DNA of 36,728 nt from the NCBI GenBank assembly GCA_026388255.1, contig JAPLKC010000087.1:1-36728 (forward strand), read 5' to 3'. Position 1 is the first letter of the stretch, and each line of letters opens with the position of its first letter. The notes under the pieces were generated by a model that was given only the letters and a program-made list of their open reading frames with translations, did not search any database and was not told the origin of the DNA. Origin of the DNA: Pseudomonadota bacterium (lineage in GTDB: Bacteria; Desulfobacterota; Syntrophorhabdia; Syntrophorhabdales; Syntrophorhabdaceae). The position numbers and the translations under genes were made by a program. Below are positions 11,321 through 36,728 of this stretch, in pieces.

Positions 11321-12427
11321 TTACAGTATCATCGATCTGCGTCCGTTATATCTTTCAATATCATAAAATTTATCAACATCAACAAGCTTCAGTTTGTTGA
11401 TAATCTCTTTCATGGGAACGCTTGTAATTTGGCCCCGTAAAAGGCTTACCATGCGTCCGAAATCCTCGTTGATTAACATATCGACAGCGGCAATGCCAAA
11501 CCGCCTTGCCATTAAACGATCATGTGACGAGGGCGTTCCTCCGCGCTGTAAGTAACTTAAGGCGATTGGGCGTGATACGAATCCTGTCTTTTTTTCTATT
11601 TCATCGGAAACATAATTTGCTATGCCTCCAAGCGAGGGGTGTCCGAATTCATCTATCTTGCCATCTCTAAGAAATTCATGCTCCCCTGAAGGCGATGCGC
11701 CTTCGGAAACGACAATAATTGAATAGTTTATTTCCCGTCCTCTTCGTTCACTGAGAAGTTCACATACCCGGTTCATATCAAAAAGATGTTCCGGTATTAA
11801 AATAATATATGCACCACTGCATTCGCCTCCATGCAAAGCGAGCCATCCTGCATGACGTCCCATTGTTTCAACAACAAAAATACGGCCGTGAGAACCTGCT
11901 GTGGTTCTCAGCCGGTCTATTTCCTCCATAATCACATTAACAGCAGTATCAAAACCGAGGGAATAGTCGGTTCCTGTAAGATCGTTGTCAATGGTCTTGG
12001 GTATGCCTATTGTCTTGATGCCTGCTTTGTACAATTTATAGGCTACTCCAAGCGTATCTTCTCCGCCGATTGCAACAACCGCGTCTATCCCGAGTTTTTT
12101 AATATTATCTATTACCTTTTCAGAATTATCATTTTTTGGATTAAAGGGGTTTGTGCGCGAGGTGCCGAGATTTGTTCCCCCATACCGGTCCCATGTTCGA
12201 ACAGTCTCTTCGTCAAGATGTTTAAGGTGTCGTTCGCAGCTTTTAGGATCATCGGGATCAACCTCTACCAGTCCCTTCCAACCGTTAGTGATACCGATAA
12301 CGTCAAAAGAAACTGATCGCTTCTCAACGAGTTTTGGATCAAGGGCACTTTTTGTTACCCATTTGACTGCACCATTCAGGCCGGGGCAATCTCCTCCACC
12401 TGTTAAAACAGCTATTTTCAGTTTCAC
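11321..12427 (-). CDS. pfp: 6-phosphofructokinase, probably pyrophosphate-dependent
   Basis: A phosphofructokinase of 368 residues when started at the GTG at 12427, which follows a GGGGGAAGGG ribosome-binding stretch and opens directly into the family start KIAVLTGGGDCPGLN. A longer ATG start at 12499 would add 24 unconserved residues. The donor-site motif is GGEDT (121-125) and the catalytic motif PKTIDND (143-149). E. coli ATP-PFK has Gly at the positions taken here by D124 and K144; Asp and Lys there are the signature of pyrophosphate-dependent enzymes. MGRHAGW for sugar-phosphate binding is also present. The enzyme would thus be reversible and use PPi. Family certain; donor inferred from two residues. 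Confidence 0.9.
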   Translation of the reverse strand: MKLKIAVLTGGGDCPGLNGAVKWVTKSALDPKLVEKRSVSFDVIGITNGWKGLVEVDPDDPKSCERHLKHLDEETVRTWDRYGGTNLGTSRTNPFNPKNDNSEKVIDNIKKLGIDAVVAIGGEDTLGVAYKLYKAGIKTIGIPKTIDNDLTGTDYSLGFDTAVNVIMEEIDRLRTTAGSHGRIFVVETMGRHAGWLALHGGECSGAYIILIPEHLFDMNRVCELLSERRGREINYSIIVVSEGASPSGEHEFLRDGKIDEFGHPSLGGIANYVSDEIEKKTGFVSRPIALSYLQRGGTPSSHDRLMARRFGIAAVDMLINEDFGRMVSLLRGQITSVPMKEIINKLKLVDVDKFYDIERYNGRRSMIL

Positions 12428-12613
12428 AATCCCTTCCCCCTTTAATTCGGAAAAGTTTCTATTACAATTGGAATGAAGTAAATAAACATTAATATTCATA
12501 TTGCCACGTCAATCAAGGTGTGTCAATGAAAATAAGGTTGCAAAAAAGAGGGATTTATATTATTAGTTTCCTGCAAAGATTATATGCATAAATTGATTTA
12601 AAGGAAGATTATC

Positions 12614-13879
12614 TTGAAATCACCGGCAAAAAAAATCTATTTACCAATATTTTTATATCTCTTCATATCAAGTTGTCTTATCTTTTTTTCTTTTTTTCCA
12701 TCTGCTGCAAATGTGATTGAAAGTGATGAAGATGAGGTTGAAGAAGTAAATATAGAAGATTCTATTGAATTTGAATCCCCATCGGAGTTGCGCGAAATCA
12801 TCAATTTTAATATCTTTGCCGATATATCCAGAGCAAAAGAAATGCTTGAAAATATGACCTGCGGTTTTAAGGTTGTAAAAATGACAAAAACTGAGAAAGT
12901 AAAAAAACCGATAAAAGGAAAAAAACCAAAAAAGAGGCTTAAAGGAAAAAAGGGGAAAACAATAACAAAGGTCAGAAAAGATAGAAGCAACGAATTAGGT
13001 GATTTTACTATTCTCCTTGCTATTGAGAACCTGAAAAACAGAGACATCCAGGTTGTCAGGATTCATCCAAAGTTCGGTGCCAGATCGGAAGGTGTTGTTA
13101 TCGAACCGGGCAAATCAAATGGCGTCAATACGAAATTTACCATCGTATATCCGGAACATCATATAGTGCTGGCCCTTAAAAGACCGGTACGCCATGGCAC
13201 AACCTTCAAAGAAGTTGTTTATACCCCTTATTCTGAAAGTCTTGATATCCCTGATGTGAGAAAAGCAGGCCTGGATTATTTGAAAAACGTCCTTAGCAAG
13301 GCGAAGAACAATCTCATCGAAAGAGGTGTGAGACCTTTGTCTGGCAACGAGTTTATTGCAGATGATGTCTCCCTTACGCTGGCAATTATTGAACATATAG
13401 ACCCACAAAAATTCGAAAGCGGAAGATATACAACGGAAAGGCTTATCCATGAAACGCTTGTAATAATGGGGACAAACAAGCAGAGCGCTTACCGTTACTC
13501 GGCGTCAAAGGCTGGAGCAAGAGGACTCTTTCAGTTTATCCCCGATACATACAAGAGAATTGCACGCCTGTATCCCCGCGCAGGTCTGGAAAATGATTTT
13601 ATTCATGGCATGGAAGATCATGAAAATGCTGCAAAGGCCTCTTTTCTACTTTTTGATGCCGACATGCGTGCGCTTAACAATGGAAGAAAAGATCAAATTA
13701 TGAATGACCCACATGCTTTGGGGAGGTTCCTTGCCTCTGCATATAACTGTGGTGCCGGAAGGACAAAAGGGGCTATAGACAGATACAGAGGAAACTGGTG
13801 TTCAGGCGTGCCTGCAGAAACACAGATTTACCTTAAAAAGTATGATGCAGTTTGGGAATGGCTCCACCGTCAACCATAG
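12614..13879 (+). CDS. exported transglycosylase-like (SLT-fold) protein
   Basis: A 421-residue protein with an N-terminal export signal (about 8-32), an acidic segment (36-54), a strongly basic stretch (91-123, many Lys/Arg, KGKKPKKRLKGKKGK), a middle domain without a recognised family, and a C-terminal region (~250-421) resembling the lytic transglycosylase fold: SASKAGARGLFQFIPDTY and LASAYNCGAGRTKGA match the family's S-x-AGA-x-GLMQ and AYN-G motifs. The Glu that normally sits nine residues before the AGA-type Ser is Lys289 here, so catalysis is uncertain. The start is TTG with an AAGGAAG site 6 bases upstream. It ends 10 bases from the convergent HAD gene. Confidence 0.75.
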   Translation: MKSPAKKIYLPIFLYLFISSCLIFFSFFPSAANVIESDEDEVEEVNIEDSIEFESPSELREIINFNIFADISRAKEMLENMTCGFKVVKMTKTEKVKKPIKGKKPKKRLKGKKGKTITKVRKDRSNELGDFTILLAIENLKNRDIQVVRIHPKFGARSEGVVIEPGKSNGVNTKFTIVYPEHHIVLALKRPVRHGTTFKEVVYTPYSESLDIPDVRKAGLDYLKNVLSKAKNNLIERGVRPLSGNEFIADDVSLTLAIIEHIDPQKFESGRYTTERLIHETLVIMGTNKQSAYRYSASKAGARGLFQFIPDTYKRIARLYPRAGLENDFIHGMEDHENAAKASFLLFDADMRALNNGRKDQIMNDPHALGRFLASAYNCGAGRTKGAIDRYRGNWCSGVPAETQIYLKKYDAVWEWLHRQP

Positions 13880-26444: not shown

Positions 26445-26534
26445 ACCGGCTTACAACGTCTTGATTTTTCAGTCTGTGAATGTTACTGTTATCATTGTTA
26501 ATACTATTCTATTGATTAATGAAAGGTGTTCTTT

Positions 26535-28154
26535 ATGAAGAAATTTAAAGTCCTCGTTACAGACAATATCTCAAAGAAAGGCGTAAATATACTGGAGCGC
26601 GAAGGCAATATTAAAGTTGATATAATGGCAGGTATCAAGGCAGATGAACTGAAAAAGATTATTGGCGAATACGATGCAATTCTAACGCGGAGCGGCACGA
26701 ATGTAACTGAAAGCTTGCTGGAAAACCCCGGCAAACTACGCATTATAGGACGCGCAGGTGTCGGTGTTGATAATATAGATATTGAAGCTGCGAGTAAAAA
26801 AGGTATTATCGTTATAAATGCCCCTACCGGCAACACCCTTGCAGCAACAGAGTTGACAATGGGGCATATACTTGCTGCTGCACGAAAGATACCCCTTGCT
26901 CATAATTCGCTTAAAGCAGGCAAGTGGGACAGAAAAAGCCTGGGTGTCGAGCTTTATAATAAAGTGCTCGGTGTTGTAGGGCTTGGCAGGATTGGAAGTA
27001 ATGTTGCCATAAGGGCTAAGAGCTTCGGCGTGAAGGTAATTGCCTATGACCCTTATATTAAAAGGAGCAAGGCTGATGCCCTTGGTGTAATGTTATACGA
27101 TAAACTGGAAGACTTGCTTAAAGAGGCTGACATAATTACATTCCATACCCCATTGACACCTACTACAAAAAACATGATTACTGCCAAAGAGATTGCTTTC
27201 ATGAAAGATGGTGTCATTATTATCAACTGTGCAAGGGGCGGAATTGTAAATGAAGACGATCTGTATAATGCTTTAAAATCAGGAAAGATTTTTAGTGCCG
27301 GTATAGATGTATTTGTAAAAGAGCCTCCAGAGAACAGCAAACTTCTACAGCTTGATAATTTGTTTGTAACACCGCATATCGGGGCCAACACAACAGAAGG
27401 ACAGGAGGCAGTTTCCGTAATTATAGCCGAACAGGTTGTCAATGCCCTGAACGACAGGCCATGTCTTAATGCGATTAATATACCCTTCATGAAATCACAG
27501 CTTCCTGAAACCATGCAACTCTACTTTAACCTTACCGAAAAAATGGGAAAGTTTGCTGCACAGATTTCAGAAGGAAGACCTGAAATGATAAAGATTATAA
27601 TGGTAGGTAAAAACTTTGAGGAAGATCTCTGTGAACGGAGATTCGACGTTCCCTTCAGCTACCAGCCTTTTACCATTGCAGGGATCAAAGGATTTTTTGA
27701 AGTAAACCATAAGGGGTCTGCCACCTATATTAATGCTCCCTATCTGGCAAAAGATGGAAATATTGACATAGAGGAGACAAAGGCAGCACAGTTTGATAAG
27801 TTTAATGATCTTATACTGTTTATCATCAAGACGGACAAAGGTGAAACCTCCATCGGCGGGACGGTATTTCCGGACAAGCTTGGAAGGATTGTTTTGCTTG
27901 ACCGGTTTCATCTTGATATGGTTCCTGAAGGTTCGTTTTTACATTTTAGAATTTTTGACAAGCCGGGTATTGTCGGAAAAGTAGGGACGATACTTGGAAA
28001 TAACAATATCAATATTGCAGGTTTTGGTATGTCCCGGCAAAAAAGCGGGGAAGAGGTTGCTTTTGTTTCTGTTGATGACTCTATCAGCAGTGTAGTGCTC
28101 GATGAGATATCGAAGATAGACGGGATGATTGAAGCAAAGGTTATACATTTGTAG
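26535..28154 (+). CDS. serA: D-3-phosphoglycerate dehydrogenase
   Basis: A 539-residue SerA of the long type: substrate/NAD-binding domains with GVVGLGRIGSNVA, NCARGGIVNEDDLY and TPHIGANTTEGQ, then an intervening (ASB) domain and a C-terminal ACT domain (RIFDKPGIVGKVGTILG) that usually mediates serine feedback. It oxidises 3-phosphoglycerate in the first step of serine synthesis. The ATG at 26535 is preferred over a GTG at 26526 because GAAAGG lies 8 bases before it and MKKFKVLVTDN is the usual beginning. Confidence 0.96.
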   Translation: MKKFKVLVTDNISKKGVNILEREGNIKVDIMAGIKADELKKIIGEYDAILTRSGTNVTESLLENPGKLRIIGRAGVGVDNIDIEAASKKGIIVINAPTGNTLAATELTMGHILAAARKIPLAHNSLKAGKWDRKSLGVELYNKVLGVVGLGRIGSNVAIRAKSFGVKVIAYDPYIKRSKADALGVMLYDKLEDLLKEADIITFHTPLTPTTKNMITAKEIAFMKDGVIIINCARGGIVNEDDLYNALKSGKIFSAGIDVFVKEPPENSKLLQLDNLFVTPHIGANTTEGQEAVSVIIAEQVVNALNDRPCLNAINIPFMKSQLPETMQLYFNLTEKMGKFAAQISEGRPEMIKIIMVGKNFEEDLCERRFDVPFSYQPFTIAGIKGFFEVNHKGSATYINAPYLAKDGNIDIEETKAAQFDKFNDLILFIIKTDKGETSIGGTVFPDKLGRIVLLDRFHLDMVPEGSFLHFRIFDKPGIVGKVGTILGNNNINIAGFGMSRQKSGEEVAFVSVDDSISSVVLDEISKIDGMIEAKVIHL

Positions 28155-28173
28155 AATCCCGTAAAGGAGATAG

Positions 28174-28611
28174 ATGAAATACCAAACCGGTGAAGTCGGC
28201 AGGGTAATTGTTGCAAGGTTTGAAGATGGCGATGTTATCCTTGACAATATTATCGGGATTGCAAAAAAAGAAGCAATCCGGGCCGGCGTTTTTTATCTTG
28301 TCGGCGGAATGAAAAATGCGAAGATCGTTGTGGGCCCTGAAAAAGATGAACTGCCGCCTGTACCGGTATGGCGTGAGATTAAAGAAAGTCATGAGATTGT
28401 TGGTATAGGAACGATTTTCTGGCATGGCGAAGAACCGAAGATCCATTTTCACGGAGCCTACGGCAAGCATGACAATGTAAGGGCAGGGTGTCTCAGAGAG
28501 ACGGCAGATACCTTTATCGTCCTTGAATGTGTAATACTTGAAATAAAAGGTGTAAACGCAACAAGAGAGCTTGACCCTGCATCGGGTATGGTGCTTCTTA
28601 ATCTGCTGTAA
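28174..28611 (+). CDS. PPC / DUF296 domain protein
   Basis: A 145-residue single-domain protein of the PPC (DUF296) family, related to the AT-hook-associated domain of plants and found as stand-alone trimers in bacteria. Landmarks are FEDGDVILDNIIGIAKKE, YLVGGMKNAKIVVGP and the HFHGAYGKHD metal-like motif (about 91-100). An AAAGGAGATAG site precedes the ATG, 19 bases after serA. It ends exactly one base before the stop of the convergent polyferredoxin gene. DNA binding is often annotated but unproven for bacterial members. Confidence 0.85.
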   Translation: MKYQTGEVGRVIVARFEDGDVILDNIIGIAKKEAIRAGVFYLVGGMKNAKIVVGPEKDELPPVPVWREIKESHEIVGIGTIFWHGEEPKIHFHGAYGKHDNVRAGCLRETADTFIVLECVILEIKGVNATRELDPASGMVLLNLL

Positions 28612-30150
28612 TTAAGACCGAGATTTATTTTTAGCTGCCGGGAATACTTCTATCGCAGATTTTCCTTCTAAAGGACACTTGTTTTCACAAATCCCGCAGC
28701 CCGTACACAATTCATCAATAACATAAGGTTTCTTCAGGACAATTTGTTTGCCGTTATAGTCTTTTTCCCCGGATAACTCGAACCTTATCGCCTTTTCCGG
28801 GATTGGGCAATGTTCTTCACAGACAAGGCAATTGATCTTTTTTGCATAAGGAAGGCAATGGTTTTTATCAAACACAGCAACGCCTATGATGCTTTTTTTC
28901 TTTTGTGATAATGGAAGATTAGGAATAGCACCTGTAGGACAGACCTGGCCGCAGAGGTTACAGTTGTATTCGCAATACCCCAGGCGGGGGATTATAACCG
29001 GCATAAAAATACCATAGGCGCCTGTCTGAAAGAGGGCAGGGTACAGTGCACTTCTTAGACAGACCTTTATGCATTCGCCGCATCTTACACATTTTTTAAG
29101 GAATTCTTTTTCATCAGAAACGCCTGGAGGTCGCAGGCATCTTTCCTGACCCGAGGGCAACTGAAAAGAAAAAACTCTTGAAACAAAAAAGCCTGACAAT
29201 AGTCCGCCCAGAAAGATTCTTCTTCCTATAACAACAGGCGTTTTTTTTGATTTGGCCGCACTAATGGCCGGGGCTTTGCCAACAAACGGCAATTTTATTG
29301 TAAACTTTACCCTTTTAAATTTGCATTTAAGCCTGCAATCCATACAGAGAATGCAATCCTGTTTTTGGAAAACTTCCTCATCAAATCCTGTTGGACAGGT
29401 TGTTTTGCATTCCCTGCAATCTTTGCAGAGAATTGACGGAATTCTTTTGAATAAAGCGAAGCTGCCCAGCAGACCCAGAAGTGTACCGAGGGGGCAAAGG
29501 TTCTTGCACCAGTTCCTTTTTTCGTATCTTTCGAGGAAAACGATGAAAAGGAAAAATACGAAGGAGATAACGGCAAGGGGATAAAAGGTTTCTCTGAATG
29601 GCAGAATGTAGTCCTTCAGGAAGGTATAAACGGGTGCGACATAATCTCTGTTCTCACCTGCCACATAATATAAGCCTGTCCACCCGGCTTTTGCAGTGTA
29701 TCCCAGGAGAGGGTAAAGAAAAAATGTCAAAGCCCTTACTAGTATGGCAATGGGGTCAAAAATACCCGAAATATTCACGTTAAAAAGTGCAGCAAATAGA
29801 AGTGTAAACAGAAAATAATACTTAAATTTTGTCTTTAGTAACCCGATAGGTATGGTTTTTTTAATTTTGTCGGTAACAAGGTCGATAATGGTGCCCAGCG
29901 GGCAAATCCATCCGCAGAAAAAGCGGCCGAGCAATACTGAAAAAACCAGCATCAATATTCCCGGTACGAGAAGCAACGTTATTGTTTTTACAGCGAGAAG
30001 ATAGCTTACAATAATAAGGGGATTGGCCCTGAAAAAACTATTTATTGCAATGGATATCTCATCTTTTCCTCTGTATTCGGTGTTGACAAAAAGGATTAAA
30101 AATACTGCCAGGAAGATTAATTGTGAAAGGCGTGACAGAGTAATTTTCAT
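28612..30150 (-). CDS. NapH/NapG-like membrane polyferredoxin (fused)
   Basis: A 512-residue protein. The N-terminal ~235 residues have about five membrane helices with NapH-type motifs FCGWICPLGTIID and NWCKNLCPLGTLLG. Two ferredoxin clusters follow (CKDCRECKTTCP and CILCMDCRLKC, ~240-275). Then comes GRRIFLGGLLSGFF, a twin-arginine-like segment, and a NapG/MauM-like domain with CVRCGECIKVC, CEYNCNLCGQVCP, CLVCEEHCP and CTGCGICENKCP. It therefore looks like NapH joined to NapG in one chain. It probably moves electrons from quinol or ferredoxin to periplasmic acceptors. The DUF362 gene lies 50 bases upstream on the same strand and may be its partner. Confidence 0.85.
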   Translation of the reverse strand: MKITLSRLSQLIFLAVFLILFVNTEYRGKDEISIAINSFFRANPLIIVSYLLAVKTITLLLVPGILMLVFSVLLGRFFCGWICPLGTIIDLVTDKIKKTIPIGLLKTKFKYYFLFTLLFAALFNVNISGIFDPIAILVRALTFFLYPLLGYTAKAGWTGLYYVAGENRDYVAPVYTFLKDYILPFRETFYPLAVISFVFFLFIVFLERYEKRNWCKNLCPLGTLLGLLGSFALFKRIPSILCKDCRECKTTCPTGFDEEVFQKQDCILCMDCRLKCKFKRVKFTIKLPFVGKAPAISAAKSKKTPVVIGRRIFLGGLLSGFFVSRVFSFQLPSGQERCLRPPGVSDEKEFLKKCVRCGECIKVCLRSALYPALFQTGAYGIFMPVIIPRLGYCEYNCNLCGQVCPTGAIPNLPLSQKKKSIIGVAVFDKNHCLPYAKKINCLVCEEHCPIPEKAIRFELSGEKDYNGKQIVLKKPYVIDELCTGCGICENKCPLEGKSAIEVFPAAKNKSRS

Positions 30151-30200
30151 TAATGGCTTCCTGTTTCCTGTTATGTGTTAAGGGTAGCGAGATATGCGTT

Positions 30201-31079
30201 TCATGCTTTAATGACCTTTATCTTGTTGAGATTCATTTCCCCCAGACCTCTTTTGTATGCGGCAACAGTTGTGGATATATCCTGTGGATTCAGGCCGAAG
30301 AGTGTTGTAGCAAAAGCGTCGGCTGCGACTATGTCTGTGGAGGCGATGACCTTATTCAGCACCTTTACGTCATTGAGATTTCCGCCCTGGGGTCCGTGGT
30401 TTAAGAGGATACGCGTTGCATCTATGATTGTCAGGTGAGTTTTTACGAAGGCATTCATATCAGAGAGAGCTTCATCTATATTTCTATGAATATACCCCCT
30501 GTTGCCTCCCATTATACCCATGATATTTTTTAAGCCGAGGGTGAGACGTGTAAGGTTGTGGTGCTTTGCGATAGGCATGTTGATGAGAACATCGGCAAGG
30601 AGCGCTTCATCATAAAGCTCCCATTCTTTCAGAAAAACGCCGTTGATCTTTGTGTTTTTAAACCGCTCGCTTTCAACGTATTTGAGCTCAACATTTTTTA
30701 AACCCTTCAATGCTGCATTAATGCCGCTGTTTTCGTAACATCTCCTTGAATCGTTACAGGTATTATCAAAGACTTTAACCTTCTTTGCACCGGCTTCCAG
30801 ACAGTCTTCAATAATAGCCTTGATAACTGCAGGGTGGGTGGTTGCCGCGTATTCCGGCCTTCTATCCCAGCCTATGTTCGGCTTGACAACAACTACGTTA
30901 CCTTTTTTTACAAATTTACCGATACCGCCCAATGCGGCAACAGCATTCCTCGTTATAGCTGCATAGTCTTTACCTTCTGCAACTGCCAGGACAGGAGGTT
31001 CTTTTGCGAAGATATTTTTGTAGAATCCGCTGAAAAGTACGGATAATGCTGCAAACCTCAAAAACTCCCTTCTTTTCAT
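30201..31079 (-). CDS. DUF362 protein with Tat signal
   Basis: A 292-residue DUF362 protein, a family found with ferredoxin domains and redox enzymes in anaerobes; reaction unknown. The N-terminus MKRREFLRFAALSVLFSGF has the twin-arginine motif RREFLR and a hydrophobic core, so it is probably exported by Tat. Family segments are VVVKPNIGWDR, VFDNTC, NMPIAKHH and LGLKNIMGIM. It lies directly upstream of the NapH/NapG-like gene on the same strand and is divergent from the molybdopterin oxidoreductase gene, whose product also carries a Tat signal. Confidence 0.87.
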   Translation of the reverse strand: MKRREFLRFAALSVLFSGFYKNIFAKEPPVLAVAEGKDYAAITRNAVAALGGIGKFVKKGNVVVVKPNIGWDRRPEYAATTHPAVIKAIIEDCLEAGAKKVKVFDNTCNDSRRCYENSGINAALKGLKNVELKYVESERFKNTKINGVFLKEWELYDEALLADVLINMPIAKHHNLTRLTLGLKNIMGIMGGNRGYIHRNIDEALSDMNAFVKTHLTIIDATRILLNHGPQGGNLNDVKVLNKVIASTDIVAADAFATTLFGLNPQDISTTVAAYKRGLGEMNLNKIKVIKA

Positions 31080-31120
31080 AAGGATAATTTTAACTATTCT
31101 GTGCGGTTTGTCAACTGTAG

Positions 31121-31136
31121 TGTTATAATTAATATA
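31121..31136 (+). promoter_or_regulatory. extended -10 element giving a probable leaderless mRNA
   Basis: TGTTATAAT is a perfect extended -10 (TATAAT at 31124-31129). The oxidoreductase ATG starts at 31136, precisely where transcription should begin. No Shine-Dalgarno exists between them and no clear -35 is visible. Confidence 0.5.
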
Positions 31137-31819
31137 TGGACAGGCGTGATTTCATAAAATTTATATCCGTACTGGGGATAGGCTTTATGCTTCCGCACTC
31201 CACGCTTACAGCAAAGGAGATTGAGAAGGTACTGGAAAACGAGGACAGGGAAGGGTTTTATATCAGGTTTTATAAGCCCTTTAAACCTGTTGACCCTGAT
31301 AGATGGACGCTAAAAGTCGGCGGTTTGTGTGAAAACCCGAAGGCGTTCAACCTTTCCGATATAAAAAGACTCAGGAAAGATACTCAAGTTTCGCGGATGA
31401 AATGTGTGGAATCGTGGTCAAGCAAAGCAAAATGGGGAGGCTTCAGGTCGAAGACGCTTTTTGATATTGTAAAGCCTGGAAAAGAGGCAAAGTTTGTATA
31501 TTTTTATTCAGCAGATGACTATTATGAGTATATTTCCATTGATGATCTTTTAAAACAACGGGTGATTTTTGTCTACGAGATGAACGATAAATTACTTCCT
31601 GATATACACGGCGGCCCGTTGAGGCTGATAATGCCCTTCAAGTACGGATACAAAAGCGTGAAGACTATTATAAGTCTTGATTTTGTGAAGGAGGAAGGCA
31701 CAGGCTTGTGGTCTAAGTATGGCTACTCCAGGGATGCAACCATTAAAACCGGTGAAGATCACGCCCTTGATTTAGGAGAGTACAGGACGCTGAAAAAAGA
31801 GGGCGAACCGGACTATTAA
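31136..31819 (+). CDS. Tat-exported molybdopterin oxidoreductase (SUOX/YedY fold)
   Basis: A 227-residue protein of the sulfite-oxidase/MsrP (YedY) fold. A Tat signal begins MDRRDFIKF. The Mo-ligand Cys is C90 in SRMKCVESWSSKAKWGG, comparable with the CVE-WS motif of MsrP. HGGPLRLIMPFKYGYKSVK is the other family hallmark. It has only the molybdopterin domain. The MsrP membrane partner MsrQ is not beside it; the divergent polyferredoxin could serve instead, which is inference. The gene ends 4 bases from the convergent sfsA. Substrate unknown. Confidence 0.88.
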   Translation: MDRRDFIKFISVLGIGFMLPHSTLTAKEIEKVLENEDREGFYIRFYKPFKPVDPDRWTLKVGGLCENPKAFNLSDIKRLRKDTQVSRMKCVESWSSKAKWGGFRSKTLFDIVKPGKEAKFVYFYSADDYYEYISIDDLLKQRVIFVYEMNDKLLPDIHGGPLRLIMPFKYGYKSVKTIISLDFVKEEGTGLWSKYGYSRDATIKTGEDHALDLGEYRTLKKEGEPDY

Positions 31820-31823
31820 CCCA

Positions 31824-32978
31824 TCACCGGCTGAGATCATCCATGTTCCGTTCCATCCTGTAGTAGAGGAGCAGGTCGACAAATTCCCTCGATTCTACAG
31901 GATTTCTATCCATATAAAAAAGATGTGAATTGCAGTTGCAGTCCGAAGAGCCGAAGCCCTTTACCTGATCTTGTGAAATCTTAGAGACCGACGCGGCGAT
32001 TTCGCATTCAAGACGGGAAGACGAGCGTATAGGAAGGGCATGGACAACAGTGGCACGCTCTCTCAGATAATCAATATGCCAGAAGAGATTTTTTCTTTTT
32101 CGCTTATGCCTTTCTATCCTTGCGGTAAGGTCTTTCATTGCTGAACCGATGTAAATATAAAAACCCTTTTTAAAAAAGATCATGCCGAGCTTTCCTATCG
32201 TAATTTCTTTATCAACATCAAGGTTGAGGATAAGTAAGTAGCTTCCGCAGTCCGCCCCTTCTTTTTCATAAATGTCCCATGGGATATCAAGCTCTGTTGC
32301 TTTATCTTCAACGGAAAGGTCATGTCCCCAGATAACGGATACGGCTTTTACGAATATATCATTACGTAGGATATAAAGGGTCTTTGAGAACTCAGGATCA
32401 ATATGGTATTCAGGCAGGAAATGTTTAACTGAAGAGGAATGAACGACAAACAGCACCCCTCCGTGGTAGGAAGAACCGGCAATATCTACAATGTGCCTCC
32501 GTCCTCTGTCTGTTACTGCATCAGGAAACATGGCCATATTTTTATGGAACAGTGTGCAGGATTTTACCTCAAGAAGCATTTTTTCGTTCCCTTTTCTGAG
32601 AAGAAAATCAAACCTGCTTCTGCCGACGGTAAATTCAGGCTTTTCTATTACATAGTCTTCAAGCCCCGGTATCCCCTGTTTTCCAATAAGCCACCCGACG
32701 ACGGTATTTGTGTGATGCGTGTGGAGAAAGACCGGTACACCGTCTTTATCAACTGCAATGACGGTATATTCTGTGCTCCTGTCTGAGATATGTGCTGTTT
32801 TGGTAATATAGAGGAGTTGATTTTTCTGTAAGAGTTCCCAGAGCCTGCCGGGGTTCGGGAGATATGCCGTGATTGCCCTGCCTTTATGGAAACATTCAAC
32901 CATAAACCTGTTAGGCCTTGCGATAAATTCGGCAGTTTCTATATGATTGAAAATGTTAAGTTTTGTAATCTTTCCCAT
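31824..32978 (-). CDS. sfsA: SfsA nuclease fused to a GIY-YIG-like DUF123 domain
   Basis: A 384-residue two-domain protein. Residues ~1-235 are SfsA: FIARPNRFMVEC, AYLPNPGRLWELL and the PD-(D/E)xK nuclease elements RSRFDFLL and LLEVKSCTLF. Residues ~250-375 match DUF123 (GIY-YIG-like): YLLILNLD, GFYIYIGSAMKDLTARIERH, HIDYLRERATV and GFGSSDCNCNSHLFY. SfsA is usually ~235 residues, so the tail is a true fusion in one reading frame. Both parts suggest nucleic-acid cleavage. It lies next to the decayed integron but is oriented with the ordinary chromosome genes. Confidence 0.88.
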   Translation of the reverse strand: MGKITKLNIFNHIETAEFIARPNRFMVECFHKGRAITAYLPNPGRLWELLQKNQLLYITKTAHISDRSTEYTVIAVDKDGVPVFLHTHHTNTVVGWLIGKQGIPGLEDYVIEKPEFTVGRSRFDFLLRKGNEKMLLEVKSCTLFHKNMAMFPDAVTDRGRRHIVDIAGSSYHGGVLFVVHSSSVKHFLPEYHIDPEFSKTLYILRNDIFVKAVSVIWGHDLSVEDKATELDIPWDIYEKEGADCGSYLLILNLDVDKEITIGKLGMIFFKKGFYIYIGSAMKDLTARIERHKRKRKNLFWHIDYLRERATVVHALPIRSSSRLECEIAASVSKISQDQVKGFGSSDCNCNSHLFYMDRNPVESREFVDLLLYYRMERNMDDLSR

Positions 32979-33014
32979 CCAGTTATACTCACTAAAAGTC
33001 TGCGTATTCCTCCA

Positions 33015-33173
33015 TTATGACTTCAACATGATATCAAGAGAACTCTTCAAGGCATTTGTCGTATCTCTTATGACATGGGTATAAATTATAGTCGTCTCAA
33101 CATTGTTATGGCCTAGAAGCTCCTGCCCCTCCCGTGAAATATCTTTCAAACTTTCTTGTGCCATAAACACCAT
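33015..33173 (-). pseudogene. C-terminal remnant of an integron-type tyrosine recombinase
   Basis: The reverse strand encodes a 52-codon open frame whose last ~40 residues are the end of a tyrosine recombinase: QELLGHNNVETTIIYTHVI contains the active-site His (LGH) and nucleophile Tyr (IYTHV). The following NALKSSLDIML resembles the GV-SPLD tail peculiar to integron integrases rather than XerC/XerD. Everything upstream (about 270 residues of a normal IntI) is missing. Its direction, away from the cassette-like genes, is that of intI in integrons. Recombinase origin is strong; IntI identity is moderate. Confidence 0.72.
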
Positions 33174-33317
33174 AAATTAAGATTTTGTTTTTGTTCTTTA
33201 TTATCACTAAAAGTGAATACCATGCAATAAAAAATAAAGAAATTATACATTTATTGGTTGTATTTCCTCAAACAATTCATGTAGTATTGAAATAAATACG
33301 ATAGTCGTATATTAAAT

Positions 33318-33324
33318 GTTAGCT
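33318..33324 (+). other. possible attI-type core site
   Basis: GTTAGCT is the only near-match to the GTTRRRY core between the integrase remnant and the first cassette gene; its sixth base (C) departs from the consensus. Position and strand fit the attI/cassette junction, but support is weak. Confidence 0.3.
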
Positions 33325-33349
33325 TATATCGAGCATCAGGAAGGATTGA

Positions 33350-34057
33350 ATGACCATCGAACGATTTGTAGAAAACGATAAAGCCTATCTGTCTTGGCGA
33401 AGTGCGCACCCTGGCGGCTTCGTGGCTAACGTTTCGGCACAGGGTCGCTCCTATGTCATGCTCCACAGAGTTTCACACAATCTTTCCAGTCGTGGCTCAA
33501 ACCATCCGAATTGTCACACCCACACATATATGAAGATGGCGAGCGAAGACCTCCCTTCCCTTGAAGCAGCGGTTGTTGCCGCAGGGTACTCACCACATGT
33601 CTTTCACGATTGTAAAATTTGCCGTCTTGGGACTGCAAGACGCTTCGAGCCAACCACTAATCTTCAATTGCTCAACGAGGCTACTTATGATCTCTTGGCA
33701 ACGGGCATCATGCCAGAGTATCCGGAAGGATATAGGAACCCCAAGGTGGCTCTACGCAAAACTAAGGAATACTATCGTTGCTCAAGGGTTAAGGCTTGGG
33801 TGCTATGGCAAGCGAGGTGGCAATGCGAAGGCTGCAAGGAAGGTGCTCCATTTACAGATTCGAGAGGTATGCCATATCTGGAAGCGCACCATATTATTAG
33901 CCTCTCGGCGGAGGGTCCGGACATTGTAGAAAATTGTGTCGCCTTGTGTCCCAATTGCCATAGGGAAGCGCATCTAGGTAGTAGAGCGTCGCAATTGATT
34001 CCCCTCTTGGAGGAAGCAATAAGGCAACGTGTGAAGGGAAGGAAATGGAAAAGCTAA
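33350..34057 (+). CDS. HNH endonuclease-type protein in an integron cassette
   Basis: A 235-residue protein with a C-terminal HNH domain (about 150-220): CEGCKEGAPF, LEAHHIISLSAEGPDIVENC and LCPNCHREAH give the two Cys pairs and the His-His/Asn/His core. The N-terminal ~110 residues have no family I recognise; they contain CHTHTY and CKIC, possibly a second metal site. The ATG has an AGGAAGG site 5 bases upstream. Its stop codon lies inside the left end of attC1, as is usual in cassettes. Its base composition is clearly richer in G+C than the next gene. It may be a defence or restriction nuclease. Confidence 0.8.
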   Translation: MTIERFVENDKAYLSWRSAHPGGFVANVSAQGRSYVMLHRVSHNLSSRGSNHPNCHTHTYMKMASEDLPSLEAAVVAAGYSPHVFHDCKICRLGTARRFEPTTNLQLLNEATYDLLATGIMPEYPEGYRNPKVALRKTKEYYRCSRVKAWVLWQARWQCEGCKEGAPFTDSRGMPYLEAHHIISLSAEGPDIVENCVALCPNCHREAHLGSRASQLIPLLEEAIRQRVKGRKWKS

Positions 34058-34108
34058 CAATCGCATCCACCGGACGGCTAAAGCCGCCGGTGATGCGTGT
34101 CGTTAGAT
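34052..34108 (+). repeat. attC-like site 1 (57 bp)
   Basis: Left core AGCTAAC (34052-34058), right core GTTAGAT (34102-34108), a match to GTTRRRY. Between them the arms GCATC-C-ACCGG-A-CGGCT and AGCCGCCGGTGATGC pair fully except for two single bases, C and A, on the left arm. On the folded bottom strand these are extrahelical G and T, the recognition feature of attC sites. Total length equals the shortest known attC sites. Confidence 0.75.
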
Positions 34109-34147
34109 GGACGCCTTCGGCGCATCAAAAGAAGATGGAGAGGTAAA

Positions 34148-34786
34148 ATGGATATTGCGATTCGAAATGAAACAGAAAAAGATTTTCACGAAGTTGAAGA
34201 ATTAACAAGGGAGGCTTTTTGGAATTTATATTTCCCGGGATGCAATGAGCATTATTTAGTTCACCAAATGAGGAATCATCCAGATTTTATAAAGGAGCTT
34301 GATTTTGTTGCAGAATACAACGGAAAAATAGTTGGAAACATAATGTATACAAAAGCATGGTTGATCAATGAAAATAGGCAAGAAAAAGAGATTATAAGCT
34401 TTGGCCCTCTCAGTGTTCTTCCAGAATATCAGCGCAAAGGCATTGGTAGCTCATTGATTAGCCATACAAAAGATATTGCTCTCACAAAGGGTATAAAGGG
34501 TATAGTGATATTAGGTGATCCGCACAATTATTGTAAACATGGTTTTAAAAGTGGCAAAGATCAAAATATTAGTGATATGAATGGGGAATACCCTTATGGA
34601 ATGCTCGCTCTTGAATTAGAAGAACGGGCATTTGAAGGACATAAATGGAAATTTAAATACAGTGATGCATTTAATATAAATGAAGAAGATACTGAGAGTT
34701 TTGATAAAAATTTTAAGAGAAAAGAAAAGGATTATAAATATTCGCAAGAAATTTTCTCAATTGCCTTTAGATCATATATCAAATAA
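34148..34786 (+). CDS. GNAT acetyltransferase in an integron cassette
   Basis: A 212-residue GNAT-family N-acetyltransferase. The family core is DFVAEYNGKIVGNIMYTK, FGPLSVLPEYQRKGIGSSLI (acetyl-CoA loop Q-x-x-G-I-G) and IVILGDPHNYCKHGF. The C-terminal 50 residues are charged and lysine-rich. The ATG at 34148 has GGAGAGG just upstream; a longer upstream frame would run back into attC1. Its AT-rich composition contrasts with the HNH gene before it. GNAT genes are common integron cargo. Substrate unknown; nothing indicates a specific antibiotic. Confidence 0.85.
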   Translation: MDIAIRNETEKDFHEVEELTREAFWNLYFPGCNEHYLVHQMRNHPDFIKELDFVAEYNGKIVGNIMYTKAWLINENRQEKEIISFGPLSVLPEYQRKGIGSSLISHTKDIALTKGIKGIVILGDPHNYCKHGFKSGKDQNISDMNGEYPYGMLALELEERAFEGHKWKFKYSDAFNINEEDTESFDKNFKRKEKDYKYSQEIFSIAFRSYIK

Positions 34787-34791
34787 CTTTC

Positions 34792-34848
34792 ATCTATCTC
34801 TTGCAACGGATCACAAAAAGCCGAGCCCGCTGAAGAGCGACGTTAGAC
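34792..34848 (+). repeat. attC-like site 2 (57 bp, degenerate)
   Basis: Right core GTTAGAC (34842-34848) fits GTTRRRY; left core ATCTATC (34792-34798) is one change from ATCTAAC. The arms CTCTT-G-CAACGGATC (34798-34812) and GAGCCCGCTGAAGAG (34823-34837) pair with one bulged G and a few wobbles or mismatches. Same span as attC site 1, at the end of the GNAT gene. Confidence 0.5.
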
Positions 34849-34926
34849 AGTATAGACAAGCATAATATTCAACTTAATTGTTATATACTATATGTTCATT
34901 ACTCGATTATTTGAAAGGAGATAAGA

Positions 34927-35262
34927 ATGGAATACATAAGAGTTGCAGCAACAGGCGAATTGCCTACAAACACGAGGACAATCGTTCTTATAAATGGTAA
35001 GGAAGTTCTTTTGGCGAATTTGGATGGTTCATACTATGCTATCGCCAACAAGTGTACTCATGCTGGAGGTTCACTGGCAGGAGGTGTTCTGAAAGGAGGC
35101 ATTATTACTTGTCCAAACCATGGAGCTCGATTCAACGTGATGACAGGAGAGGCTGTCGGGCAAATTAAGGTTGGGTTTAGAGAAATAAAGACTGAGAATG
35201 TTGAATGTTATACTGTCAAGGTTGAAGGAATAGATATTATGGTGGGAATACCAGAAGTGTAA
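34927..35262 (+). CDS. Rieske [2Fe-2S] ferredoxin-like protein
   Basis: A 111-residue stand-alone Rieske protein. The cluster ligands are visible as CTHAGG (Cys-x-His, about residues 40-45) and CPNHGARFN (Cys-x2-His, ~60-68). It resembles the small ferredoxin components of dioxygenase or nitrite-reductase type systems. An AAAGGAGATAAG site precedes the ATG. It starts 78 bases after attC site 2, so it may be a third cassette, but no convincing attC ends it. There is no oxygenase or reductase partner nearby. Confidence 0.9.
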   Translation: MEYIRVAATGELPTNTRTIVLINGKEVLLANLDGSYYAIANKCTHAGGSLAGGVLKGGIITCPNHGARFNVMTGEAVGQIKVGFREIKTENVECYTVKVEGIDIMVGIPEV

Positions 35263-35531
35263 ATATTGATAAAAGGTGTCTCAGGCATATATTGAGTACT
35301 TGCATTGTTTCCGGGGTCAGAGGTGTATGCATATAGACAAACGTTCCTTAAAAAAATTATCTTTAAAAATGGGGCTGAATTAATCCAGGAAAACCAAAAA
35401 AAGAACTTGTCCAACAAATATGTGCAGCCAAACGACCCGAGCCTCTGGCTGATTTTTATGTTGGAACCAAATGATGAAAAAATATCGATTTCATATCATG
35501 TCGTGCGATTACAAACACTGTGTCTATAGTG

Positions 35532-35554
35532 TTAACGCCAACAGTTGGCGTTAA
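35532..35554. repeat. 23-bp perfect dyad A (11-A-11)
   Basis: TTAACGCCAAC, a central A, then its exact reverse complement. The one-base centre makes an RNA hairpin unlikely and a dimeric protein site or vestigial recombination site more likely. It ends in GGCGTTAAAC, which contains a GTTRRRY match. Confidence 0.7.
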
Positions 35555-35608
35555 ACAGAAAATATCCATAAACCCAATACTGGCCTTGCTTTGGACTACA
35601 GAACCATT

Positions 35609-35631
35609 TTTGCATCCACAGTGGATGCAAA
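35609..35631. repeat. 23-bp perfect dyad B (11-A-11)
   Basis: TTTGCATCCAC, a central A, then its exact reverse complement. Same architecture as dyad A, 54 bases further on, with a different sequence but the same AC-A-GT centre. Confidence 0.7.
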
Positions 35632-35882
35632 TAATTAAGAGGACCATGATTCCTTCATGTTTTCCCTCTTACGACGGTTTGTATGGAATGAGGATGCACC
35701 TTCAACTAATTTGGTAAAGGAATTACAACTATATATCTTTATATTTTCTCCATGTCGAAAGGTTGTCGAGGTATTTCGGTGTTTTGTCTCCGGGAAAGTC
35801 CTTTTTAATTGTTTTATCACAAGTTGTCTGGTATTTTATCATGTTCAGCATTGACAGTTATATGTAGACAGGTTAAAAGCAA

Positions 35883-36290
35883 ATGATGAAGGAAAAATAC
35901 TTCCTCAATCTAAATGGTAGTTCCGAAGAAATATCACCATCAGGAGAGCATCGTCGAAGCATACGGTTTCCGGTGAGTCTCTCTGTTAAATATGGAGAAA
36001 AAACTCCCGTTGAATATACGAGTTTTATTATAAATATGAGCGAGAGAGGTGTTTTTATTCAAACCGAAAATCCTCTCCAGACAGGCGCCAAAATTGTAAT
36101 GTCCTTTTATATACCCCCGAATGTTAAGATTCTTGCTAACGTCGTTGGAAATGTACAATGGGTAAACAACGGTGATTCTAATCTTCCGAGAGGCATGGGG
36201 ATCAGTCTGGAAGTCTATAGCATAGAGTCAATACAACTACTTGAAGATTTCCTGGAAGAGCGAAAACATTTAGTCGATCTAAAAGGATAA
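35883..36290 (+). CDS. PilZ domain protein
   Basis: A 135-residue protein consisting of one PilZ domain, the receptor fold for cyclic di-GMP. The motif parts are RRSIRFPVSLSVKY (Arg pair, about residues 22-35) and NMSERGVFIQT (position of the D/N-x-S-x-x-G motif, ~56-66), followed by MSFYIPPNVK and GMGISLE. It resembles the stand-alone PilZ proteins common in Myxococcus-like and deltaproteobacterial genomes. A second ATG at 35886 is an equally possible start. No enzyme partner adjoins it. Confidence 0.85.
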   Translation: MMKEKYFLNLNGSSEEISPSGEHRRSIRFPVSLSVKYGEKTPVEYTSFIINMSERGVFIQTENPLQTGAKIVMSFYIPPNVKILANVVGNVQWVNNGDSNLPRGMGISLEVYSIESIQLLEDFLEERKHLVDLKG

Positions 36291-36433
36291 GCCGCTTAAA
36301 CATATCGCTAAGTTTTGTTTCCAATGAGCCGCCTCGCAGTTCTGTTGAGGGGCAGGGAAACAGAAGAGTCAGCCCTTGCATTTGAATATGTAATGGGAGA
36401 TAACGATATTTAACTTAATAATAACAATTAGTT

Positions 36434-36500
36434 GCTTAACAATTCGCTGGAGCCAATCGGCAACAAAAAACGTTGCCCCCGGCTCAATTCTGCGTTACCA
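36434..36500 (+). repeat. attC-like site 3 (67 bp)
   Basis: Left core GCTTAAC (36434-36440) fits RYYYAAC exactly and is followed by AATTCGCTGGAGCC, close to the left end of classical attC sites. Two nested stems pair: GAGCC (36450-36454) with GGCTC (36481-36485), and GGCAAC (36459-36464) with GTTGCC (36472-36477). The right core GTTACCA (36494-36500) deviates from GTTRRRY, so the site may be inactive. Confidence 0.6.
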
Positions 36501-36524
36501 CCCAGAATGAATGTGCAATCTTTA

Positions 36525-36579
36525 GTTGCATTATGTTGCATTATGCTATTCTGAGAGATACAATTATAGCATGTTGCAA
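36525..36579. promoter_or_regulatory. probable antitoxin operator
   Basis: GTTGCATTAT occurs twice in tandem (36525-36544). The second copy extends to TTGCATTATGCTAT (36536-36549), which is inverted at 36566-36579 with 12 of 14 bases matching. Position just upstream of the antitoxin gene suggests autoregulation. Confidence 0.55.
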
Positions 36580-36602
36580 TAAAGATGTTCGGAGGAACGA
36601 TT

Positions 36603-36728
36603 ATGGCTACAGCAGTAAGAATATCAGAAAGACTTGTAGATGAAGCAAAGAGATTTGGACGAATTGACCATAGGTCTTTAGCCGGGCAGATTGAGCACTG
36701 GGCACAAATGGGCAAATGTGTCGAAGAG
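36603..36728 (+). CDS. ParD-like antitoxin (partial, runs off the window)
   Basis: The first 42 codons of a gene with a perfect GGAGG site 6 bases before the ATG. The product begins MATAVRISERLVDEAKRFG and continues RSLAGQIEHWAQMGK, matching the ParD-like antitoxin family, ribbon-helix-helix-type proteins that bind their own operator and neutralise a toxin. The toxin gene, if present, lies beyond the window. It follows attC-like site 3, so it may be a toxin-antitoxin cassette. Confidence 0.8.
   Translation, partial: MATAVRISERLVDEAKRFGRIDHRSLAGQIEHWAQMGKCVEE

Follow-up and report, generated by a model that had tools for sequence, protein, structure and literature searches.

How does the gene of a ParD-like antitoxin come to start close behind an attC-like hairpin at the very end of a contig, and what lies beyond that end? 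The window, by which the whole stretch of 36,728 nucleotides that was analysed is meant, is an entire contig (C87) of an assembly of 147 contigs and 3.83 Mb. With high confidence a type II toxin-antitoxin gene cassette can be said to begin at its end; this cassette is mobile in relatives and runs into a second contig, C42. The sequence displays an attC site and a crossover boundary, behind them an operator with the genes of antitoxin and toxin forming one operon, and finally a closing attC that has decayed. Comparison finds the pair, with the same boundary, at unrelated loci of other Syntrophales-like genomes, where attC sites flank it. Toxin-antitoxin gene cassettes are already well known and the one described here is no new kind of system, but with it a mobile ParD-like/ParE-like cassette is on record in several genera, together with the exact position of its crossover boundary. 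Within the open-access literature covered by our search this group of bacteria is little described in this respect, one paper combining integron, Syntrophus and attC.

The attC site and the array of the window

Towards its end the window carries the following features:

33030-33146, minus strand: C-terminal remnant of an integron integrase (TIGR02249, 30.4 bits), with a translation resembling the end of the integrase of contig C45
33350-34057, plus strand: HNH endonuclease gene, first cassette of the array (PF01844, E 6.5e-11)
34049-34111, plus strand: attC site with canonical AGCTAAC and GTTAGAT ends (fold, covariance models R1 and R2)
34148-34786, plus strand: GNAT acetyltransferase gene in the array (PF00583, E 1.2e-10 for 34097-34786)
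34927-35262, plus strand: Rieske ferredoxin-like gene in the array (PF00355, E 7.2e-15)
35406-35469, plus strand: attC site of the preceding cassette (R2, 39.4 bits, E 3.2e-8)
35883-36290, plus strand: PilZ-domain gene, in the cassette closed by the next site (PF07238, E 3.4e-10)
36434-36500, plus strand: attC site with R'' GCTTAAC at 36434-36440 and R' GTTACCA at 36494-36500 (direct reading, blastn, covariance models)
36494-36495, plus strand: G^TT, putative point of integrase crossover, at which the toxin-antitoxin cassette starts (blastn boundary, six-way alignment)

The integrase remnant matches 38 profile positions and points away from the array, which is the arrangement of classical integrons. 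The structure at 36434 had been called attC-like in the preliminary description, and its ends agree in part with the attC end consensus (R'' RYYYAAC, R' GTTRRRY): GCTTAAC matches, GTTACCA deviates, and R'' and R' mismatch at three of seven positions. The deviation of R' would be expected if its last bases are part of the next cassette; canonical R''/R' ends are found at 34049-34111 of the window and in some relatives. A blastn search of the same genome with 36291-36728, made before any model, gave a best copy of 89% over 57 bp (E 1e-14) and about ten weaker ones, and the related sites lie on eight other contigs (C45, C134, C97, C89, C37, C53, C85 and C42). Two covariance models were then used, R1 with 11 sites, two of them from the window, and R2 with 16 sites and no window sequence, which removes the circularity. 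Over 49 kb, made up of the window and 12.4 kb of C42, R2 reported four matches in all up to E 10, namely window 36431-36503 with 64.7 bits (E 3e-15), two other sites of the window array and the decayed site of the pair itself. The recovery of the site by a model free of window sequence turns the attC-like structure into an attC site. The conserved hairpin of attC sites, an imperfect one in which the arms are complementary and L'' has an unpaired base, is borne out by this score and by the alignment of the 16 sites, in which 78% of the cells are paired in the attC structure as compared to 27-44% when the partners are slid, with a covariation score of 0.248 versus a shuffled mean of 0.145. The canonical site at 34049-34111 reaches 37.7 bits with R1, which contains it, and only 15.6 bits (E 0.14) with R2. 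A search of 33000-36728 against Rfam gave no attC match, its sole match being a chance one to mir-155 on a palindrome.

Alternatively, the hairpin at 36434-36500 could be a terminator or a REP-like element belonging to the PilZ gene, since it lies 143 bp past the PilZ stop and folding alone does not set it apart: the bottom strand of the site is weakly special (z -1.69, with 9 of 200 shuffles equally stable), and 34051-34112 folds strongly (z -6.03). This explanation is extremely improbable, as a terminator scan found no T-run terminator at 36434-36500, as the copies of the hairpin have R''/R' ends and conserved outer arms and lie between unrelated genes, in one orientation, clustered and in some cases close to integrase remnants, and as R2 already contradicts it.

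Within the array, window 35520-35640 belongs to a non-coding repeat that is about 150 bp long, contains two palindromes and is dispersed in the genome, with copies of 74-80% on several other contigs, some of them beside attC sites; no Rfam family matched it at threshold.

The toxin-antitoxin pair and the end of the array

What follows the attC site, and where does the array stop? The last 141 bases of C87 are exactly identical to the first 141 bases of reverse-complemented C42, an overlap that would represent a branch in the assembly graph. On account of this identity C42 is read as the continuation of C87, with a little doubt because the join rests on a contig overlap of 141 bp. Operator, pair and closing site are then located as follows (coordinates in C42 are those of L009):

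36526-36579, plus strand: operator/promoter region (direct reading, conservation in relatives, motif statistics)
36603-36728, plus strand: first 42 of the 72 codons of the ParD-like antitoxin gene (PF11903), complete in C42
C42, L009 12409-12191, minus strand: complete antitoxin gene, 72 aa (PF11903, E 2.5e-17)
C42, L009 12184-11885, minus strand: ParE-like toxin gene, 99 aa (PF15781, E 1.5e-22)
C42, L009 about 11880-11811, minus strand: putative decayed attC site, 4 bp past the toxin stop

The full reading in C42 confirms the antitoxin as ParD-like, and its ATG at 36603 lies 102 bp past the end of R', in keeping with the distance of about 100 bases first noted. The toxin gene predicted downstream from the window letters alone was indeed found in C42, 6 bp past the antitoxin gene, so that PF11903 and PF15781 form one operon with the antitoxin first, the arrangement of type II systems. 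Neither protein has a match in NCBIfam. A sequence search of the PDB with the toxin returned RelE alone, at E 0.3 and above, and because this result was so weak the fold was examined by structure prediction. The predicted structure of a homologue (L101, not this copy; mean pLDDT 90) has its best Z of 11.8 with RelE1 (9g12_A, rmsd 1.6 A over 76 residues) and aligns with RelE1, YoeB/ParE, RelE2 and ParE1 at Z 11.5-11.8, a range that does not separate RelE from ParE. Judged by this homologue model, the toxin would have a RelE/ParE fold. The activity of PF15781 is given as unknown in a report in which clustering points to mRNA cleavage (PMC11980606). The toxin described here would more likely be an mRNA interferase of RelE/ParE fold than a gyrase poison.

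In front of the antitoxin gene a 10-bp direct repeat of TTGCATTATG at 36526-36545, inverted arms at 36536-36549 and 36566-36579 and a -10-like TACAAT at 36559-36564 can be read. That these repeats resemble an operator, as had been suggested, is supported by their conservation: the motif TTGCATNATGCAA, with at most 2 mismatches, is present upstream of 49 of 70 usable related antitoxins, versus 0/66, 1/64, 1/63 and 1/62 in shifted control windows, and among the matches listed it is common to cassette and non-cassette copies. The operator of this genome has an additional 10-bp TTGCATTATG. Since a scan with consensus promoters found no promoter on the plus strand, the presence of one is deduced from the conserved -10-like box together with the operator.

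The site 4 bp past the toxin stop is read as a decayed attC, as R1 matches it over 70 nt with 18.3 bits (E 0.039) and R2 recognises the apical hairpin only, with 18.0 bits (E 0.029). It is followed by a cyclic-nucleotide/GGDEF gene, and in the last 12.4 kb of C42 one further R1 match is found, at chance level (15.6 bits, E 0.19) and not reported by R2. The suggestion that the array continues beyond the window thus holds for one toxin-antitoxin cassette and no further, because the last 12.4 kb of C42 are without another attC above chance, and this cassette is the last recognisable one of a short array. Similarly, where a toxin gene and then another attC had been anticipated, the toxin gene is present and an attC closes the cassette in relatives, whereas the local closing site has decayed.

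The crossover boundary and the copies of the pair in relatives

A cassette should be recognisable by its ends in other genomes. The search for relatives covered 60 genomes, own included, of which 15 have a match to the toxin, and five close relatives (G001, G016, G037, G010 and G008) have it at 75-91% identity. In G037, G010 and G008 the pair is flanked by attC sites on both sides, G001 has a clear attC downstream only and G016 upstream only, with a GGGTAAC remnant past the toxin. With R1 the closing attC scores 24.6 bits in G008, 32.4 in G010, 31.9 in G001 and, weakly, 18.4 in G037, and 18 in the own copy. When the window is compared by blastn to the loci of G001 and G016, homology begins at 36493 and 36494, respectively, which places the cassette boundary at G^TT in R'. 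In the six-way alignment all six copies of the pair start at GTTAYC, and the closing R'' boxes of the relatives (GGATAAC, GGGTAAC or GGGCAAC) are complementary to this start.

How far does the association with attC sites extend in the wider toxin family? Among toxin homologue loci of named genomes, of which the best 80 of 113 were analysed, R1 gave 47 matches in 22 loci and R2, the alignment of which includes a few of these loci's sites, gave 53, all on the strand of the pair. An R1 attC adjoins the pair in 18 of these best 80 of 113 loci (10 upstream, 12 downstream, 4 both), and its presence varies with toxin identity, being found in 17 of 44 loci at 70% or more, in 1 of 20 at 60-69% and in 0 of 16 below 60%. 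No adjoining R1 attC was found in the remaining 62 of the best 80 of 113, from which the PF11903/PF15781 family appears to exist also outside integrons, or in arrays whose attC sites are of other types. The start of the cassette and the R'' that closes it are complementary at six or more of seven positions in 20 of the best 80 of 113 loci, versus 7/71, 4/70, 7/66, 4/64 and 3/59 in shifted windows, a test that is weak alone as about 5-11% of shifted windows pass it. For the own copy the complementarity match was discarded as spurious, since it uses the operator.

The sister species G001 allows the same place to be viewed in another genome. The window is collinear with it over 26453-32969 (80.5%) and the collinearity then stops; in 14 kb at the syntenic place of G001 the best attC match has 10.9 bits (E 1.2) and there is no homology to the toxin-antitoxin genes, and the species' own copy of the pair lies on another contig. 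Conservation of the antitoxin at the same locus in integron-free relatives, which the preliminary description had named as the observation that would speak against a cassette, is not what this locus displays, because neither attC nor toxin-antitoxin genes are present there. Genes of C42 map to 76-109 kb of contig C58 of G001, and one to C20, and the SfsA gene of the window maps to C58 at 164 kb. The downstream side is rearranged in G001 and therefore offers no clean empty site, which the upstream side does provide. Orthology of the GGDEF gene was tried as a downstream anchor and failed, its best match in G001 having 39% identity.

Could the pair be an ordinary chromosomal toxin-antitoxin operon that chances to adjoin an attC site without being a cassette? 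The family is common outside integrons, as the 62 loci above indicate, and distant relatives, all under 60% identity, occur on 73 plasmid records. However, homology between copies at unrelated loci begins within 1 bp of the crossover point, by which this explanation is largely refuted, and the pair has attC sites on both sides in three relatives and is absent from the syntenic sister locus. Such a coincidence is very unlikely. The leave-window-out model, the R''/R' ends and the shared boundary led us to reject the terminator, REP and chance-neighbour readings.

Integrase remnants, persistence and possible role of the cassette

If the pair is a cassette, what could have moved it, and can it still move? 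Over the genome R1 gave 52 matches up to E 10, 41 of them at E 0.0043 or below. The large chromosomal integron that had been assumed as the setting was not found; instead, short arrays are scattered over many contigs and accompanied by broken integrase genes only. Integron integrases are broken in C45 (a stop and a change of frame) and in C53 (three pieces), and C-terminal fragments remain in C94, C126 and at window 33030-33146. Further TIGR02249 matches, for example of 318 aa in C42 and 299 aa in C90, reach at most 73 of the 265 bits that the cut-off requires; they probably represent tyrosine recombinases of another kind. Neither in the fragmented assembly of this genome nor in G001, which has 35 attC matches and no integrase at E 1e-40 or below, was an intact integron integrase found, and the arrangement of a sedentary integron with an active integrase, an intact intI beside attI and array, was not encountered as the TIGR02249 genes are broken or fragments. 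The relative G010 has an intact integrase. Integrase pseudogenes are common, making up about a third of those surveyed (PMC2426708). Clusters of attC sites without an integrase are known as CALIN elements (PMC8618304), and the array described here resembles them in having several attC sites in one orientation with no functional integrase nearby, but unlike them it retains a C-terminal integrase fragment in the classical divergent position. The integrase is divergent from the array in C45 and in the window, unlike in C53, C94 and C126, where the remnants (L031 at 12258-13195, L068 and L067, respectively) have the same orientation as the attC array.

It is likely that an integron integrase inserted the cassette by recombination at G^TT, IntI presumably acting on the folded bottom strand of attC. 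The pair would then express itself, with the antitoxin repressing the operon through the palindrome, and a cell that lost the cassette would be harmed by the stable toxin, freed from its antitoxin. With its broken integrase genes and a closing attC that has decayed, this genome probably keeps the cassette fixed in place. The superintegron of Vibrio cholerae holds 19 toxin-antitoxin cassettes with their own promoters (PMC11023631), which share with the present one the two-gene type II operon, the own promoter (deduced here) and the bounding by attC. Stabilisation of the array, as proposed for those cassettes, is by analogy plausible for this addiction module too. The genome described here differs from Vibrio cholerae in that its arrays are short and lie scattered, that the search yielded no intact integrase and that its toxin is of PF15781.

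Alternatively, the cassette may be kept as a defence against phages or incoming plasmids and not for stabilisation of the array. According to one proposal toxin-antitoxin cassettes act against homologous systems of plasmids and phages (PMC8618304), and the distant homologues on plasmids would fit such a role, but no phage match was found in 50,697 records, and we consider the proposal rather doubtful.

Signs of decay are seen in the local copies. A 7-residue tandem insertion, in frame and in the KHKLETA region, distinguishes the toxin of this genome from those of the five close relatives, and at a position where it has Leu an Arg is found in 71 of 80 homologues (61 by script and 10 by eye); these changes may weaken it. 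In the sister species G001 (L081, antitoxin before 1501) an internal deletion frameshifts the antitoxin, giving 59 aa with a different C-terminus; the toxin frame is intact, and the toxin there is apparently without a full antitoxin. The insertion and the Leu change here and the frameshift in G001 would fit relaxed selection, in two cases only. Together with the broken integrase loci and the decayed closing attC these changes also make it conceivable, at less than even chances, that the local copy is a relic in which integrase and toxin-antitoxin genes decay and no longer function. Against this stand the intact frames of antitoxin and toxin, the intact operator and the retention of the conserved HENYY segment, and in the homologue model L101 the insertion maps to residues 55-58, a predicted beta-hairpin turn, where it may be tolerated.

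Is this cassette alone in the genome? The open reading frames behind 50 attC sites were inspected (48 R1 genome matches, the four weakest being left out, and two weak ones in C42), and Pfam was run on 20 of the 68 reading frames, picked by eye. Nine of the 50 sites, including that of the present cassette, are followed by toxin-antitoxin genes of which one partner or both exceed the cut-off of Pfam, the families being Phd/YefM, ParE, PemK/MazF, PIN, Unstab_antitox and MazE or ParD-like. Four more sites have toxin-antitoxin matches that are weak, unspecific or unscanned (C126:4821, C37:24947, C97:351 and C79:151). In addition, 6 of 13 matches to ParE_toxin (PF05016) lie within 1.5 kb of a same-strand attC, on 1.2% of the stranded sequence (binomial P 4e-9). 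Cassettes of metagenomic integrons are rich in BrnTA, RelBE, ParDE and HigBA (PMC7370490), and toxin-antitoxin systems rank with the most frequent functions of metagenomic cassettes (PMC7370490; PMC8618304). The same kinds of families follow attC sites in this genome, for which, unlike in the metagenomic catalogue, the loci, a comparison to a sister species and the crossover boundary are available. Cassette-borne toxin-antitoxin pairs thus persist where an intact integrase was not found, and this natural situation would allow one to examine whether arrays are stabilised by such pairs when the integrase can no longer excise them. A further-reaching proposal, which we think unlikely, would be that the genus lost the integrase while dozens of attC sites and about a dozen toxin-antitoxin cassettes persisted, addiction modules outliving the integron, holding the relics of dead arrays and decaying once excision is impossible. 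Elsewhere in C42 (L070, 10717-12120) a Phd/ParE pair is followed by an Unstab_antitox/ParE pair, with two attC sites in between.
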